From: Phycisphaerales bacterium
GTDB taxonomy: Bacteria; Planctomycetota; Phycisphaerae; Phycisphaerales; UBA1924
Reading direction: 5' to 3'
Assembly: GCA_029260475.1 (NCBI GenBank)
Contig: JAJDDE010000055.1
Coordinates: 1-34,166, forward strand
Length of the DNA stretch: 34,166 nt
The position numbers were made by a program, and so were the translations under genes. This document shows positions 1 through 12,795 of the stretch, one piece after another; position 1 is the first letter of the stretch, and every line of letters starts with the position of its first letter. The notes under the pieces are model-generated. The model saw only the letters and a list, made by a program, of their open reading frames with translations, had not been told where the DNA came from and did not search any database.

Positions 1-1353
1 TCGATGGGACGCCTGACCCTCAACATGCTCCTGAGCTGTGCGCAGTTCGAGCGCGAGGTGGCGGGCGAGCGCATCCGCGACAAGATCGCGGCGACCAAGA
101 AACAGGGCTACTGGGTATGCGGCCAGCCGCCCTTGGGCTACCGCCTACAGCGTGAGGACGAGCCCCGAGGGCTCTACGTCATCGAGGAAGAGGCGCAGCT
201 CGTCCGCACGATCTTCGAGCGGTTCATTGAGACGGCGTCACCGACGGAGGTCGCGCGAACGCTCAACGATGAGGGGCATACCACCAAGCGCTGGGTCAGC
301 AGCACGGACCGTGTGCACGGCGGCAAGCCGCTCACTGCGAAGTACATCTCGACGCTGCTCTCGAACCCCGTGCTGATCGGGAAGGTCACGCACACGCAGA
401 GAGATAGCGGTGAAACCCATGTGTACGATGGACGCCACGAGGCGATCATCGACACCGAGACATGGAAACATGCCCAGTCGCTGATCGGCACGCAGGACCG
501 CGATCAGCAGCACCGCTGGACGCACCCGCACCTCTTAAAAGGCAAGCTCCGTACAGGATCGGGCGACGCGATGAGCCCGACGTCGACGCAGCGGCCACTT
601 ACCAAGCGCGGCGAGACCAATCAGAAACGGCTGGTGCGGTACTACATCAGCCAGCACGCGATCAAGCACGGCTTCGCGGCGTGCCCGATCAAGTCCATCA
701 ACGCCGAGCACCTCGACGACCTCGTGCGCGGCGTGGTCCTGGATCACCTCGATCACGAACGGCTCTCCGGGCAACCCCAAGAGGCCCGCGACCACTGGAT
801 CCGAGCAGTACTCGATAGCGTGACCCTCACGTCCGACGCGGTGACCATCCGGCTGCACAACGACGCGCTCGAAGTCTTGCGGCGGCACGAATTCGATCCC
901 TTGAATTCGGAAGCGGTCGGACGCCCAACCTGCCCGCGGAAACCGGAATTCGTCGACGACGGCGACACGCAACGCCTCACGCTCAGGATCCGGATCAAGA
1001 AACACGACGGGCGGCGGGTCCTCTTAGACCCAGAAGGGCGCGACCTCGTGCTGACCTCGAATCCTGAGCCGAGCCCCCACATCGTCGATGCGATCGGACT
1101 CGCGTACCGCTGGCACGACGAGCTGCTGGAGACGGGCGAGAGCATCCGCGTGTTCGCTGAGCGGGTCGGGGTCTCCCGGGCATGGGTCAGGAAAATATTG
1201 CCCCTGACGCAGCTGGGGCCGGAGCCCCTGAAACAATCCCTGCACGGCACGCTACCCCCAAGCGTGACACTCGCGGACCTGCTCCACGCTGCGGGCGAAC
1301 TCGATTGGGACCGGCAAGCGCATGCGCTCGGGCTCGCACCGGTCACCCGCTAA
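1..1353 (+). CDS. Large serine recombinase, C-terminal part (5' end outside window)
   Basis: The reading frame is open from the first base, which encodes a Ser before the first Met, so the gene starts outside the window. The visible part opens with the end of the resolvase catalytic domain (GRLTLNMLLSCAQFEREV, then GERIRDKI, the long helix typical of large serine recombinases). It continues into the recombinase DNA-binding domain (about residues 35-150, with GYWVCGQPPLGY and ARTLNDEG). The catalytic serine would lie upstream. A region resembling the family's beta-ribbon segment (RYYISQHAIKHG) follows, but without the paired CxxC zinc ligands seen in many relatives. A helix-turn-helix-like stretch (FAERVGVSRAWVRKIL) lies near the C-terminus. 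Such enzymes cut and rejoin DNA at att sites of phages and integrative elements. The gene points towards a tRNA-Ser gene with palindromic repeats between them. The family is certain; whether it is mobile or domesticated is not. Confidence 0.93.
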   Translation, partial: SMGRLTLNMLLSCAQFEREVAGERIRDKIAATKKQGYWVCGQPPLGYRLQREDEPRGLYVIEEEAQLVRTIFERFIETASPTEVARTLNDEGHTTKRWVSSTDRVHGGKPLTAKYISTLLSNPVLIGKVTHTQRDSGETHVYDGRHEAIIDTETWKHAQSLIGTQDRDQQHRWTHPHLLKGKLRTGSGDAMSPTSTQRPLTKRGETNQKRLVRYYISQHAIKHGFAACPIKSINAEHLDDLVRGVVLDHLDHERLSGQPQEARDHWIRAVLDSVTLTSDAVTIRLHNDALEVLRRHEFDPLNSEAVGRPTCPRKPEFVDDGDTQRLTLRIRIKKHDGRRVLLDPEGRDLVLTSNPEPSPHIVDAIGLAYRWHDELLETGESIRVFAERVGVSRAWVRKILPLTQLGPEPLKQSLHGTLPPSVTLADLLHAAGELDWDRQAHALGLAPVTR

Positions 1354-4181: not shown

Positions 4182-4559
4182 ATGGCCCACGTCCTGATGA
4201 TCGATGATTCGCCCCTCGCACGCTCCGTCGTCCGCATCGTTCTCGAACGAGACGGGCACACGCTCATCGAGGCCTCCGACGGGGTCGAGGGGCTGGACGC
4301 CGCCATCGCGCACCGACCGGATGTCATCCTCTGCGGCGTCTCGCTGCCCGGCATGGGGGCCCACGACATCGCTCGCTGCCTCCGCAGCGCGGGCATCGGC
4401 TCGCCCATGATCGCGCTCGGGCACGACCCTGAATCGAGTCAGTGCATCGTGAGCGGAGACCTGGGCATCATCGGCATGGTCGGGCGCCCCCCGTGCGCCG
4501 ACACACTGCGATCCGGCATCGACGCCGCGATGCACGCGGGCTCGCGCTTCGCGGCGTGA
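4182..4559 (+). CDS. Receiver-like domain protein lacking the phosphorylation site
   Basis: A 125-residue stand-alone response-regulator receiver domain. The N-terminal acidic pair is intact (MIDDSP, D8 and D9) and the beta-3 region is recognisable (PDVILCGVSLPGM). The phosphoacceptor Asp position is Gly52, however. The switch Thr/Ser position reads Gly (MIALGHD) and the conserved Lys is Arg102 (VGRPP). Three of the key residues are therefore replaced, and phosphorylation by a histidine kinase is unlikely. It may work by protein binding alone or be a decaying gene. The frame is open from 4047, but the ATG at 4182 has GGAGGC just upstream and matches the receiver fold exactly. There is no output domain and no kinase nearby. 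It is convergent with the immunophilin gene. Confidence 0.85.
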   Translation: MAHVLMIDDSPLARSVVRIVLERDGHTLIEASDGVEGLDAAIAHRPDVILCGVSLPGMGAHDIARCLRSAGIGSPMIALGHDPESSQCIVSGDLGIIGMVGRPPCADTLRSGIDAAMHAGSRFAA

Positions 4560-4592
4560 CGTGGAGTGTCGCCCGGTCTCAGTCCTCCGGTC

Positions 4593-5693
4593 TTAGAGAA
4601 CCTTGACCAGTTCCATATCGAAGACGAGCACCGCCTTGGGCGGGATGCCCGAGCGCCCGGCTTTGCCGTACGCCTTGTCGTAGGGGATCACGAGGAAGCG
4701 CCGACCGCCCTCGCCCATCTTCACGAGCGTGTCGTTCCAGCCGGCGATGAAGCCGTTGGCGACGTGGTCCATGGGGGCACCACGATCGCGCGATGAGTCG
4801 AACTTCTTCCCGTTGGGGAACCAGCCGGTGTAGTGAACGCGGACGCCGTCCGTGGGCTCGGGCTTCACGTCGTTGCCCTTCTCGACGATCAGCGTCCAGA
4901 CGCCGGTCTCGGTGTCCATGTACCCCTCGGAGACGTCGTAGCCCTGGCTGGCGATGAGTTCCTTCGCCTGGGCAAGGGCATCGGTCCACAGTTTCACGTC
5001 CGCCTCGGCCAGTTCCTTCGCGATGCGCTCACGCTCGGCGATGCGCTCCTTGCGGAGTTTGGAGGCCTCGTCCTCGGGCAGCATCTGGGCCTTCTTGATC
5101 ACGACGTTCTCGACCGGCCAGTCATTCATCGCGCCGTTCGGTGTCTCCTTCGGGGCGGTCTGCACCTGACGGATCGCGTCCACCACGTCTTTGCCGTCGA
5201 TCACCTCGCCGAAGACCGCGTAGCCCGCGCCGTCGCGCGGCTGGTCCAGGAACGCGTTGTCCGACACGTTGATGAAGAACTGCGCGGTCGCGGAGTCCGG
5301 CTGGCGCCCGAGGCGGGCCATCGCGACGGAGAACTTCGTGTTCGAGAGGCCGTTCTTCCACTCGTTCTTGATCGCGTCACGCACGTCCTTCTGCTCGGCG
5401 TCGACCGTGAACCCGCCGCCCTGGATCATGAAGTTGCTCATCACGCGGTGGAACACGGTCCCGTCGTAGTGCCCGTCCTCGATGTACTGCACGAAGTTCT
5501 CGACGGAGATCGGGGCCTTCTCGTAGTTCAACTCGATCAGCATCTCGCCCATCGAGGTCTCGAACGTGACGTACTCGTAGTTGTTGAACTCTCGGGCCTT
5601 CTCGGGCTCGGAGTCCGTCTCGGTCTGACCGCAGGCGCTCGTGATCGGGAGCGTCAGAGCCGCGACAGCGGCGAGGGTGAGGAGCGTGCGCAT
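4593..5693 (-). CDS. Cyclophilin-FKBP dual peptidyl-prolyl isomerase, probable lipoprotein
   Basis: A 366-residue exported protein with two unrelated prolyl isomerase domains. Residues 1-21 form a signal peptide ending in TSAC, a plausible though weak lipobox with Cys21. Residues about 42-203 are a cyclophilin (FHRVMSNFMIQGG with Arg83, then AQFFINV). Residues about 205-250 are a charged, probably helical linker. Residues about 280-366 are an FKBP domain (VHYTGWF, FDSS, IPYDKAYGKAG, and a hydrophobic end FDMELVKVL). It would catalyse proline isomerisation during folding of exported proteins, probably anchored facing the periplasm. It is a single gene, upstream of nothing related. Fusions of both immunophilin families in one chain are uncommon. 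The lipid anchor is less certain than the domains. Confidence 0.92.
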   Translation of the reverse strand: MRTLLTLAAVAALTLPITSACGQTETDSEPEKAREFNNYEYVTFETSMGEMLIELNYEKAPISVENFVQYIEDGHYDGTVFHRVMSNFMIQGGGFTVDAEQKDVRDAIKNEWKNGLSNTKFSVAMARLGRQPDSATAQFFINVSDNAFLDQPRDGAGYAVFGEVIDGKDVVDAIRQVQTAPKETPNGAMNDWPVENVVIKKAQMLPEDEASKLRKERIAERERIAKELAEADVKLWTDALAQAKELIASQGYDVSEGYMDTETGVWTLIVEKGNDVKPEPTDGVRVHYTGWFPNGKKFDSSRDRGAPMDHVANGFIAGWNDTLVKMGEGGRRFLVIPYDKAYGKAGRSGIPPKAVLVFDMELVKVL

Positions 5694-5791
5694 AGATGAA
5701 GGCCTCCGTGTGGGGATCGTGAGTATCGGTTGTGCGAGGCCCGATGCTAGCGGGCCGGCGGCGTGGAGTGGTGGAGAAGCGGGTCAGTCGG

Positions 5792-7108
5792 TCAGTCTGA
5801 GGAGCGCTGGAACAACAGGGCCCCGATCAGGAACCCGACGACTCCGATACCGATGAGCACCGCGCACGGTGCGATCACCTCGCCAAAGGTCGCCTGGCGC
5901 CACAGCGCCCCATCAAGCACCTGGATCACCCATTTGAACGGGCTGATCGACGCCGCCTGCTGCACCCAGCCCGGCATGATCGCCAGCGGGACCCCCGCGC
6001 CGCCCACCAGCGCGAGGATCAGGAGCACCGCGCGCGACAGCCCCTCCGAGCCCGTCTCGGTCTTCCCGAGCGAGGCCAGGAGCATCCCCAGCCCCACGAA
6101 CGCGATACACGCACAGAGGATGCCCGCGATGAGAATCCCCCACGAGTCCGGACGCACGCCGAACACGCCCACTCCGAGCGACATGATCAATACCTGCACC
6201 CCGAGGCACGTCAGGAAACACGCGAGCGCCTTGCCGGCGATGATCTGCCACGGCGCGATGGGCGCGAGGCGGAGGCGCGTGAGCGTGCCGCGCGTCCTCT
6301 CGCCCACCACGCCCAGCCCGAACCCGAGGACGCAGGACATCAGCCCCCACGCGACGGCCTGCGGGAACGTGATCTCGAAGGCGGTGTCCGGGCTCGCCTT
6401 CTTCGGAGCGTCTGGATCGTCATCGCTGCCGGTAGCGGGGGAGTCGTCGGTGATCGTGATGGGCTGGAAGCCGCCGGTGCCGTCGCCAGTCGCGCCATCT
6501 TCGGAGTCGTCCTGCTCGCGCAGGGAGAGCATGCTGTCTGCGCTCGAAAGGAACGTGCTGATCACAGCGCGCTCGGCGAAGTTGAGGTCCTCGGATTCCG
6601 CGAGCGATTCCCTTGCGCGGTCGAGCATGCGCTGCGAAGACGCGCCGCCCTGGAATGCGCCGAACATCGTCTGGTACGCCGCAGCCTGGATCATGCCGCG
6701 CAGCACACCGCTCTCGAGATTCTTGCCCGGGTCGAACGACACCACGAGTTCCGCGCCTTCGCCGAAGAACATCGACTCGAGATCGTCTCCGAATCCCTCG
6801 GGGATCAGAAGAGCCCCAGCCTGTTCACCGGTGCGCACCATGTCGAATGCTGCGTCACGGTCCGCGTCGAGCGTCACGCTGATCTTCGGGTCGTCCTCGA
6901 GCAGCCCTATCAGCGCCTCCGATGCCGGGCTGTTGTCGAGGTCGGCGATCACGAGCCTCACGTTCGATGGGCCATCGCTCGCGCCCGAGAAAATCACGCC
7001 GAAGAGAACACCGAACCCGATCGGGAAGATGAAGACGAAGAAGAAGCCCACGCGGTCGCGGAAGAGCTGCGCCATGTCCTTCTTCGCGATGGCGAGTACC
7101 GGGTGCAC
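5792..7108 (-). CDS. ABC-2 type transporter permease
   Basis: A 438-residue membrane subunit of an ABC-2 exporter. One transmembrane helix lies at about residues 21-42. A large extracytoplasmic domain of about 200 residues follows (the ABC-2 type extended loop, starting GPSNVRLVIADLDNSPAS). Then come about five helices at 245-435, containing the typical cytoplasmic segment GERTRGTLTRLRLAPIAPW between the first two. The likely start is GTG at 7108, giving HPVLAIAKKDMAQLFRDR, a usual opening for this family. The stop codon of its ATPase lies three bases upstream, so the two genes form an operon and presumably one transporter. The cargo cannot be told; relatives export drugs, sodium or polymers. 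An unusually acidic, Ser/Asp-rich stretch (about residues 190-225) lies in the large loop. Confidence 0.9.
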   Translation of the reverse strand: MHPVLAIAKKDMAQLFRDRVGFFFVFIFPIGFGVLFGVIFSGASDGPSNVRLVIADLDNSPASEALIGLLEDDPKISVTLDADRDAAFDMVRTGEQAGALLIPEGFGDDLESMFFGEGAELVVSFDPGKNLESGVLRGMIQAAAYQTMFGAFQGGASSQRMLDRARESLAESEDLNFAERAVISTFLSSADSMLSLREQDDSEDGATGDGTGGFQPITITDDSPATGSDDDPDAPKKASPDTAFEITFPQAVAWGLMSCVLGFGLGVVGERTRGTLTRLRLAPIAPWQIIAGKALACFLTCLGVQVLIMSLGVGVFGVRPDSWGILIAGILCACIAFVGLGMLLASLGKTETGSEGLSRAVLLILALVGGAGVPLAIMPGWVQQAASISPFKWVIQVLDGALWRQATFGEVIAPCAVLIGIGVVGFLIGALLFQRSSD

Positions 7109-7111
7109 AGG

Positions 7112-7957
7112 TCAGTCCCTCAGCGAGCGCCCGGTGAGGTTCAGGAAGACGCGTTCGAGATCGGGCGGCTTGATCTCGATCGCGGTGGTCGTCGTGTCCT
7201 GCATCGCCTTCTGGAGTTCGGGCATGGGTGTGTCGGTGGAGACCTCGCGGACGCCCTCTCCCGAGGTGACGCGGACGACCGAATCCCCGCCGTGCTGGGC
7301 GACCAGCGCCGCGACGGAATCGACCGCCATGGTGCGCCCGCGATCGACGATCGCGACCACGTCGCAGAGTTTCTGCGCCTCTTCCATGTAGTGCGTCGTG
7401 TAGACAATCGTCACGCCCTCACCCTTGATCTCGCGCACGAGGTCGAAGATGGCGTTGCGCGACTGCGGGTCCACACCGACCGTCGGTTCGTCGAGCAGCA
7501 GGAGCATGGGCTTGTGAACGAGGGCCACCGCGAGGTTGAGGCGGCGCTGCATGCCCCCCGAGAATCCGCTCACGCGGTCCCTCGCGCGCTCGGTGAGGCC
7601 CACGCGCTCGAGCAGTTCGTCTGCGCGATGGGCACCATCGCCCCGCGAGAGGCCGTACAGGTTCGCGAAGAACAGCAGGTTCTCACGCGCCGAGAGGTCG
7701 TCGTAGATCGCCAGGCTCTGCGGCGCCAGCCCGATCAGGCGGCGCACCTCCGGGTCCGTGGGCGCCCCGCGTCCGTCCACGCTCACGCTGCCCTCGTCAG
7801 GCTTGAGCAGCCCGACACCGATACGGATGCTCGTGGTCTTCCCCGCGCCATTCGGGCCCAGCAGCCCGAAACAGGAGCCCCGCTCGACGTGCAGCGACAA
7901 CCCGTCCACCGCGAGGTGGCCGTTGAAGTGGTGCCGGATGCCGCGGAGATCGAGCAT
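7112..7957 (-). CDS. ABC transporter ATP-binding protein
   Basis: A 281-residue ATPase subunit of an ABC-2 exporter. It shows all nucleotide-binding motifs in order: Walker A GPNGAGKTT, Q-loop LAPQS, signature FSGGMQRR, Walker B LLLLDEPTVGVD, and switch His in TTHYMEEA. The C-terminal part (PDLERVFLNLTGRSLRD) is the usual tail of this subfamily. It energises the permease encoded three bases downstream. The frame stays open up to 8101, but the ATG at 7957 gives the normal N-terminus (MLDLRGIRHHFNG). It is transcribed away from the flagellin gene, so the 363 bases between them should contain both promoters. The substrate is unknown. Confidence 0.93.
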   Translation of the reverse strand: MLDLRGIRHHFNGHLAVDGLSLHVERGSCFGLLGPNGAGKTTSIRIGVGLLKPDEGSVSVDGRGAPTDPEVRRLIGLAPQSLAIYDDLSARENLLFFANLYGLSRGDGAHRADELLERVGLTERARDRVSGFSGGMQRRLNLAVALVHKPMLLLLDEPTVGVDPQSRNAIFDLVREIKGEGVTIVYTTHYMEEAQKLCDVVAIVDRGRTMAVDSVAALVAQHGGDSVVRVTSGEGVREVSTDTPMPELQKAMQDTTTTAIEIKPPDLERVFLNLTGRSLRD

Positions 7958-8320
7958 GACGACGCAGCGTACCCGGATGGTCACACGGGCGACGACCCGG
8001 ACTCTCCGCCCCCGTCTTGAGAAGCAACGTGGAAACCGTGATTCGCCCGGGCCGTCTGTGCGCTTCACAACGGTCTTCAGGCCCCCCTGACACGGGCGCA
8101 CGGCCCAGAGCGGCTTTTATCGCTCCAAAAAATTATCACACGCGGTGAAGGTGGGTCTGTGCGGGGTCGATGAACCACACCGACGCATGTTTCGGAGCCA
8201 GACCAGGCGCGTCGCCCGGTCCGAGAAAGCTCTGGAGCGTCAGCACCGGCGGAGCCGGGATTCAGCAACACGCAGGGCGACAGTGCCCATGTCCAGAGAT
8301 CCCGGTTCACGGAGGACCCC
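7958..8320. other. Divergent regulatory region between ABC operon and flagellin
   Basis: No gene is seen in these 363 bases. It must hold promoters for the ABC operon (leftwards) and flagellin (rightwards). An A-rich patch (CCAAAAAATTATCAC) lies near 8126-8141. A weak flagellar sigma-28-like arrangement is visible: TGAA near 8144, about 15 bases, then GTCGATGA near 8165. It matches the enteric consensus only in part and is not called as a promoter. Just before the flagellin start is GGAGGA, a strong ribosome binding site. Confidence 0.5.
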
Positions 8321-11412: not shown

Positions 11413-11631
11413 TGCTCCCGCTGGTAATACGGCAATCAAACAGCGGTACTGATTCTGTACCAACCTGAGATTCCTGTGTCTCGACTCAGGCTTCCAGCTT
11501 GAGGCAATACGTGGAGCGTGCGACCGTTCTACAGGCTCTTGCCGTTCATGTCCCGCGGCAGGGATGAAGGGAACACGATAAATTGGGGCTGACAGATTAT
11601 CCAATGGATGCCCTGCATCACGGAGCTTGCA

Positions 11632-12795
11632 ATGAGCCATGTTGTACGGATTCGCTTTTTCTATACGGGGGTTCTCTGTTCCCTGTGCATGTCCGTCAAC
11701 GGCTGTGGCGCGTTGGATGGTCAGCCCCATCGAGAATCCCATGTGAGCACTAGTTCTGAGGCGCAGGGCACGGATGTCGATGCCCGTCCGGTGAATCTGG
11801 CCCACTTCATAGAATCGGCCTTGGCTGGGCCGATCGTGCAAGAAGAACGGGCACTATCCGACGGTACCGTCGCGCTCTGCTATGTCATCAGGACATACTC
11901 AGAGCCGCAGGAGCACGCGATGGGGCCGTGGGCACCGACCACGATCTACGACGACGCGAGCAAGGGCGGCATCTGGTTCCACGACGGGCATGTCCACGAT
12001 GTAGACGGCGCGTTCGTGCACGATATCGCCGAGTTCTACGGCGACCCGGAGTGGAAACTCTACCGCGAGGACGGCTCGGTCATTGTGACCGACACGAAGG
12101 CGGCATTCGAGGCCGCCGCACGGCCCGATGTCGATCCGCAGTACCACAACCATGTGGTCGAAGGGCGGCCCGAGTGGATTGACCGACAAGTCTCGGTCTT
12201 TGTCATACCTGTGCAGCCTATCTATCAGGATCAGCCGACCTCCATTGGAGGTAGGGCGGGTGGTCCCGATCGCGGGGCACACAATGATGGCCCGCCATCC
12301 GGCAGGCGGGGCGGGCCACCGCCGCGACGCCCAGGCGAAGACGGTGGACGGCCACCCCGTCCCGGTGGCCGGCCCGCGGATGGTGCCCGAAGAGGCGGGC
12401 CGGGCTTTGCCGCACTCGGTGTAGCGTTCAACGGCGTGGAGTTTGCGCCGCCGGCACCGTTGCAAGCAATCCTCGCCGCGCACACGATCGCGCCGTTCGA
12501 TGACGCGGGAGGGCACCTCAACCCACACGATGGGTACCACTACCACGCCGTGACCGGCCACACCAAAGAGATCGCCCAGTCAGACGGGCACGCGCCGATG
12601 ATCGGCTACATGTTGGACGGGTACGCACTGTTCGCCCTGGAAAACGAGGACGGATCCGTACCAGTTGACCTTGATGAGTGCGGTGGCCATTGGGATGCAA
12701 CCCGCGGCTACCACTACCACGCAGGTGCTGCTGGCGAGAACCAGATCATTAAAGCGTTCCGGGGCATTCCTGGAACCATGACAACAGAAGACTGA
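11632..12795 (+). CDS. YHYH-motif lipoprotein
   Basis: A 387-residue predicted lipoprotein. The signal peptide covers about residues 1-22 (MSHVVRIRFFYTGVL..., ending VNGC). ATG 11632 has GGAG seven bases upstream and is preferred over ATG 11608. The C-terminal half is a YHYH-type domain: two copies of the motif occur in NPHDGYHYHAVTG and TRGYHYHAGAAG, with MIGYMLDGYALF and ECGGHWD between them. The same His-rich pattern is found in a widespread family of secreted proteins without known function, and may bind metal. A low-complexity linker of about 55 residues (Gly, Pro, Arg; near residues 205-260) precedes the domain. The N-terminal half is unrecognised. It is the only gene between the two tRNA-Pro 3'-end copies, so it may have arrived by transfer. 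Confidence 0.85.
   Translation: MSHVVRIRFFYTGVLCSLCMSVNGCGALDGQPHRESHVSTSSEAQGTDVDARPVNLAHFIESALAGPIVQEERALSDGTVALCYVIRTYSEPQEHAMGPWAPTTIYDDASKGGIWFHDGHVHDVDGAFVHDIAEFYGDPEWKLYREDGSVIVTDTKAAFEAAARPDVDPQYHNHVVEGRPEWIDRQVSVFVIPVQPIYQDQPTSIGGRAGGPDRGAHNDGPPSGRRGGPPPRRPGEDGGRPPRPGGRPADGARRGGPGFAALGVAFNGVEFAPPAPLQAILAAHTIAPFDDAGGHLNPHDGYHYHAVTGHTKEIAQSDGHAPMIGYMLDGYALFALENEDGSVPVDLDECGGHWDATRGYHYHAGAAGENQIIKAFRGIPGTMTTED
12288..12318. repeat. REP-like palindrome inside the YHYH gene
   Basis: TGGCCCGCC (12288-12296) and GGCGGGCCA (12310-12318) are perfect 9-base inverted arms around ATCCGGCAGGCGG. The palindrome falls in the Gly/Pro/Arg linker. A smaller palindrome (ACCTCC-ATT-GGAGGT) lies about 40 bases upstream. 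Together they suggest that GC-rich palindromic DNA was inserted in frame and is now translated as linker. This is inference. Confidence 0.4.

Follow-up and report, generated by a model that had tools for sequence, protein, structure and literature searches.

We found that the window, a 34,166-nucleotide stretch of DNA from a Phycisphaerales bacterium, encodes what is very probably (about 0.85) a CFBP-type exported protein with two proline isomerase heads. CFBPs are the published bacterial class of cyclophilin-linker-FKBP dual-family immunophilins (Barik, PMC5852385, PMC6316441). The gene occupies 4593..5693 on the minus strand and encodes an exported cyclophilin-helix-FKBP protein of 366 residues; it runs in a single unbroken frame from the ATG at 5693 to the stop at 4593, with a likely ribosome-binding site (GGAGG, 5703..5707, minus strand) 5' of the ATG. 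A 288-residue ORF on the opposite strand (4833-5699, plus) overlaps it and is taken as a shadow ORF. Pfam search of the protein gives two matches spanning nearly the whole of each model. The first is to the cyclophilin family PF00160 (residues 41-203; 5085..5573, minus strand; E 7.2e-44; 150.3 bits against a cut-off of 21.7; model columns 1-158 of 159) and the second to the FKBP family PF00254 (residues 276-363; 4605..4868, minus strand; E 1.9e-22; 79.8 bits against a cut-off of 21.1; columns 3-94 of 94). They are separated by 72 residues, and there is no further Pfam match. The domain search agrees with the first-pass annotation, which had read the sequence as one exported chain carrying a cyclophilin and an FKBP, each complete, with a charged linker between them (a dual-family immunophilin); D, E, K and R make up 47% of residues 207-249 (4947..5075, minus strand). 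Eleven relatives from the same family share this layout at 37-49% overall identity, and an AlphaFold2 model built on an 11-row alignment has two confident domains (mean pLDDT 84.5, with the signal peptide under 50). Together the two full-length domain matches, the relatives and the two-domain model argue that the fusion is not due to chance. In the window genome as a whole, three cyclophilin matches and three FKBP matches pass the family cut-offs; the fusion gene supplies one of each.

The N-terminus is by eye a typical signal peptide (residues 1-21, MRTLLTLAAVAALTLPITSAC; 5631..5693, minus strand), and the N-termini of the relatives also look like signal peptides. At its end stands the candidate lipidation site Cys21 to which the earlier reading had drawn attention; it is indeed present, and the 366 residues contain no other cysteine. 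The motif I-T-S-A-C matches a relaxed, PROSITE-like lipobox pattern. On the strength of the sole cysteine we lean toward lipidation at Cys21, which we consider somewhat more probable than cleavage after Ala20. A rival to the main reading, to which we give slightly better than even odds, is that the lipid is the point, and that the protein is a membrane-anchored lipoprotein chaperone whose two isomerases, held at the membrane, fold outer-envelope proteins. The lone cysteine and the relaxed match speak for such a chaperone, as do the true-looking lipoboxes found in G242 and in the second copy of each of the four tandem fusion pairs described below. However, a T is seldom found at -3, the motif does not fit the strict pattern [LVI][ASTVI][GAS]C, and signal peptidase I could reasonably cut after T-S-A as well. 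Moreover, the relaxed pattern is matched by none of the 11 other family fusions, among which the cysteine is not conserved (one of them, G140, has A-A-C within its hydrophobic stretch), and by only 12 of 87 fusion ORFs overall (3/24, 6/43 and 3/20 across three sets, with start codons set by a simple rule in the 43- and 20-ORF sets); in several of these 12 the cysteine lies well ahead of a better signal peptidase I site.

The tandem pairs come from four genomes of family f112 that carry two fusions in a row (G744, locus L253; G601, L259; G683, L284; G828, L303). In all four the second copy matches the lipobox and the first does not. First copies keep F88, M89, A126, W319 and Y342 in every case; in second copies F88, A126 and R304 are replaced in 4/4 and W319 in 3/4. 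Judged by these residues, the active sites of the lipobox copies look eroded in both halves.

The window protein itself keeps its catalytic residues, where which residues count as key is our assumption, carried over from CypA and FKBP12. Aligned to E. coli PpiA (1clh), the cyclophilin half retains R83, F88, M89, Q91, A126 and F140, lying in FHR 81-83, FMIQ 88-91, MAR 125-127 and QFF 138-140; aligned to E. coli FkpA, the FKBP half retains Y288, F298, D299, R304, W319, Y342 and F358. We thus looked for the loss of key active-site residues in one half, which the first-pass annotation had named as evidence against its reading, and found every checked residue in place. Beyond the window, 71 of the 87 fusion ORFs (from 83 genomes) keep all eight of R83, Q91, Y288, F298, D299, W319, Y342 and F358, which indicates constraint on the catalytic residues of each half. 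We infer from these residues that each half isomerises prolyl bonds. For the published CFBP criterion that each module be a PPIase inhibited by cyclosporin A and FK506, what the window protein offers is the key residues. The review (PMC6316441) states that published CFBP and FCBP proteins have PPIase activity in both modules; elsewhere it names the Toxoplasma protein as the only one for which two-module activity had been demonstrated, which is hard to square with its earlier statement on a flavobacterial protein. In the alignment, the FKBP 80s loop of the window protein is one residue shorter than that of the first domain of wheat FKBP. The positions that we take to be W121 and H126 of CypA are F148 and Y158 in the window protein, a pattern also found in E. 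coli PpiA; with F and Y in place of the CypA W and H, the window cyclophilin would be expected to bind cyclosporin weakly.

We consider it unlikely that the protein works instead as a holdase or scaffold, with at least one of its PPIase sites idle. Such forms do arise: the eroded lipobox copies of the four tandem pairs are examples, and another is the fusion of G107 (family f1; loci L175 / L129), which has kept its cyclophilin and is without most key residues of its FKBP half, so that the FKBP head has been dispensable at least once. The intact residues of the window protein and the 71 intact fusions nevertheless stand against this explanation here. Apart from the fusion, G107 also carries another FKBP match (L148). 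That an assembly or annotation artefact made one gene of two adjacent ones is scarcely credible, given the unbroken frame and the repetition of the layout in independent genomes, and we found no evidence favouring it.

Residues 207-249 are modelled by AlphaFold2 as one 43-residue helix (block pLDDT 87-97), and the orientation of the two domains is uncertain (whole-chain pTM 0.61). In Foldseek, cyclophilins rank first, the cyclophilin half matching those of Azotobacter and E. coli (E 4.6e-19). Next come FkpA, PaFkbA and Mip, matched by the C-terminal half at E about 1e-13 over 160-170 columns, extending beyond the FKBP domain alone, and phmmer aligns residues 226-365 of the protein to FkpA 83-223. 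Because of these long structural matches and the alignment to FkpA, the modelled C-terminal half looks like a Mip/FkpA-like stalk-plus-FKBP with the cyclophilin as its head. Of the NCBIfam models, that of E. coli PpiA (PRK10903) comes closest to the first half; the window protein scores 189 bits on it, below its cut-off of 308. PpiA is likewise exported and has the same active-site F and Y, but lacks an FKBP half. The second half matches the helix plus FKBP of E. coli FkpA and Legionella Mip, although its 86.8 bits are below the cut-off of the NCBIfam FkpA model (215 bits). FkpA and Mip carry an N-terminal dimerisation domain, whereas the N-terminal part of the window protein is a cyclophilin, which sets it outside the FkpA/Mip group.

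As a two-headed isomerase of the CFBP kind, the chain would cross the inner membrane under the direction of its signal peptide, and then either be lipidated at Cys21 and held at a membrane or be cut after Ala20 and freed into the periplasm. There the PpiA-like cyclophilin and the FkpA-like FKBP, to go by their active-site residues, would each isomerise prolyl bonds of exported clients. The predicted charged helix would space the two sites on one chain, such that a client leaving one may meet the other, and the cyclophilin would take the position of the dimerisation domain of FkpA and Mip.

Several features unify the window protein with published CFBPs: a complete domain pair, cyclophilin-then-FKBP order, a bacterial host, and a linker without TPR or other domain whose 72 residues fall within the published 38-76, the paper's boundaries being drawn differently. 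The first-pass annotation had considered the cyclophilin-first order distinctive, but it is the defining order of the published class (PMC5852385, PMC6316441). The FCBPs described there, from unicellular eukaryotes, are FKBP-3TPR-cyclophilin proteins; like the window protein they have both domain families on one chain, and they differ from it in their opposite order, TPR linker and eukaryotic hosts. Three differences from CFBPs were found. First, of the signature peptides, which the CFBP paper uses to recognise the domains and not to define the class, FHR, HY and FDSS are present and MAN, W and H are replaced by MAR, F and Y. Second, the published linker is disordered and the window linker is predicted to be helical, a weak discrepancy since AlphaFold2 is not a disorder predictor; as we see it, linker disorder is not a defining CFBP trait. 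Third, the host belongs to none of the groups that the table of the paper names. Besides 235 flavobacterial, 26 spirochaete and 7 proteobacterial sequences, the 278 counted include 10 'others' (PMC5852385, PMC6316441). The string 'Planctomyc' is absent from the texts of both papers, and a literature search for the dual-family immunophilin class together with planctomycetes returned no paper holding both. We take GldI to be an FKBP-only protein and give no weight to the statement that follows. The review (PMC6316441) has F. johnsoniae gldI encode a CFBP, and cites a paper titled with GldI as a lipoprotein.

The earlier view that dual-family immunophilins are rare does not hold in the class of the window genome. 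In the family of the window genome, matches that reach across both halves at E <= 1e-60 turn up in 12 of 163 genomes (the family-search match of G107 stops at residue 347). At least 62 of 397 genomes in a class sample carry a spanning fusion at E <= 1e-85 (families f1, f2, f103, f112, f113 and f114), and at least 13 of 392 in a phylum sample do so at E <= 1e-50, adding families f12, f40, f48, f55, f61 and f90. The two samples overlap (G000, which is the window genome, and G050), and both counts are lower bounds because at most five candidates were scored per genome and weaker fusions fall under the cut-offs. Commonness in many phyla had been named beforehand as evidence against a distinct architecture; what we find is that it is common in one class and present in further families of the phylum, with other phyla known from publication only (Bacteroidetes, spirochaetes and proteobacteria; PMC6316441). 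The best named match is a single-domain one, to Phycisphaerales UBA1926, with 60% over the cyclophilin. Outside the phylum, 97 loci (the best 80 of 565 genome-contig loci plus 17 viral) all have a cyclophilin ORF and none has an FKBP match at E <= 1e-4, in a scan that used short peptides and in which distant Bacteroidota or spirochaete CFBPs could not show up. A DNA search of E. coli gave 5,303 matching records, and in none did a single place cover 80% of the query. G250 has a triple cyclophilin-FKBP-FKBP protein (family f48; locus L219, 4175-5662, plus strand). A cyclophilin domain of the window genome (L003, contig C13:19652-20071) lies within a 1042-residue open frame, and relatives show similar long frames that match cyclophilin.

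We also considered horizontal spread and phage carriage, and set both aside. None of 170 matching plasmid records covered 80% of the query at a single site, nor did any of 194 with a CypA-type fusion as query; in the 17 viral loci the match was confined to the cyclophilin part, and the Bacteroidota plasmid match H22 had, by eye, only FKBP-like ORFs in 3.5 kb.

In the cyclophilin tree, a 100/99 branch, at a point where long branches meet, sets the seven fusions of families f40, f55 and f61 and one single cyclophilin of the window genome apart from the remaining fusions and the majority of single cyclophilins. The position of CypA H126 is H in these seven fusions and Y in the other 80. The split and this residue difference suggest that fusion took place at least twice in the phylum, and the window cyclophilin is by sequence PpiA-like, unlike the CypA-like half of the second fusion group. 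It groups with three single cyclophilins at 100/93 (91 in the quick tree) and not with the other family fusions. In quick-tree tests, constraining the 12 family fusions to a single clade was not rejected (p 0.157), while a constraint uniting all 17 PpiA-type fusions was (p 0.028). On one common origin of the fusions the trees speak with little resolution, for the cyclophilin and the FKBP alike, the bootstrap of the FKBP tree being unsettled.

Gene neighbourhood offers a second view of descent. Upstream of the fusion, on the same minus strand, are an ABC-2 permease (5792-7108) and an ABC ATPase (7112-8101), both by Pfam; downstream on the other strand are a receiver-domain protein and a protein that we name ferredoxin-reductase-like. 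Among the 11 other fusion loci of the family, six have a homologue of the latter near the fusion and two have the ABC pair upstream, several of these contigs being short (one is 3 kb). None of nine single-cyclophilin loci shows any of the neighbours looked for. The shared neighbourhood points to descent at one locus in some family fusions, and its absence from the single-cyclophilin loci further suggests that the fusion has long resided at that locus in some members of the family. This might be squared with the tree if a cyclophilin half had been replaced or if genes had been split. A conserved operon with the ABC transporter was rejected, since the pair occurs at so few of the loci. No promoter-like site was found in 4400-8300 with the sigma-70 consensus. 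Elsewhere in the window are a YHYH-domain protein with a low-complexity middle rich in glycine, arginine and proline (11608-12795, plus strand) and a serine recombinase-type protein (4-1353, plus strand) whose resolvase N-terminus is cut by the window edge.

With published CFBPs compared by description only, we put at even odds the broader proposal that the window protein belongs to a second dual-family immunophilin lineage apart from the CypA-type CFBPs, joining a PpiA-type cyclophilin to an FkpA-type helix-FKBP, serving several families of the class as a standard envelope chaperone, and duplicated in one family into a soluble active copy and a lipid-anchored eroded one. To the already known order, domains and export, this work adds a host group, a PpiA-type half, a predicted helix and tandem pairs. 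We know of no direct study on the envelope folding machinery of the Phycisphaerae (Planctomycetota). CFBPs, a curiosity so far described mostly from spirochaetes and flavobacteria, would become an exported protein that is widespread within one class, probably the Phycisphaerae. The predicted rigid helix puts the published picture of a floppy linker in question, and the tandem pairs of soluble and lipobox copies would be natural material for asking what tethering and catalysis each contribute.
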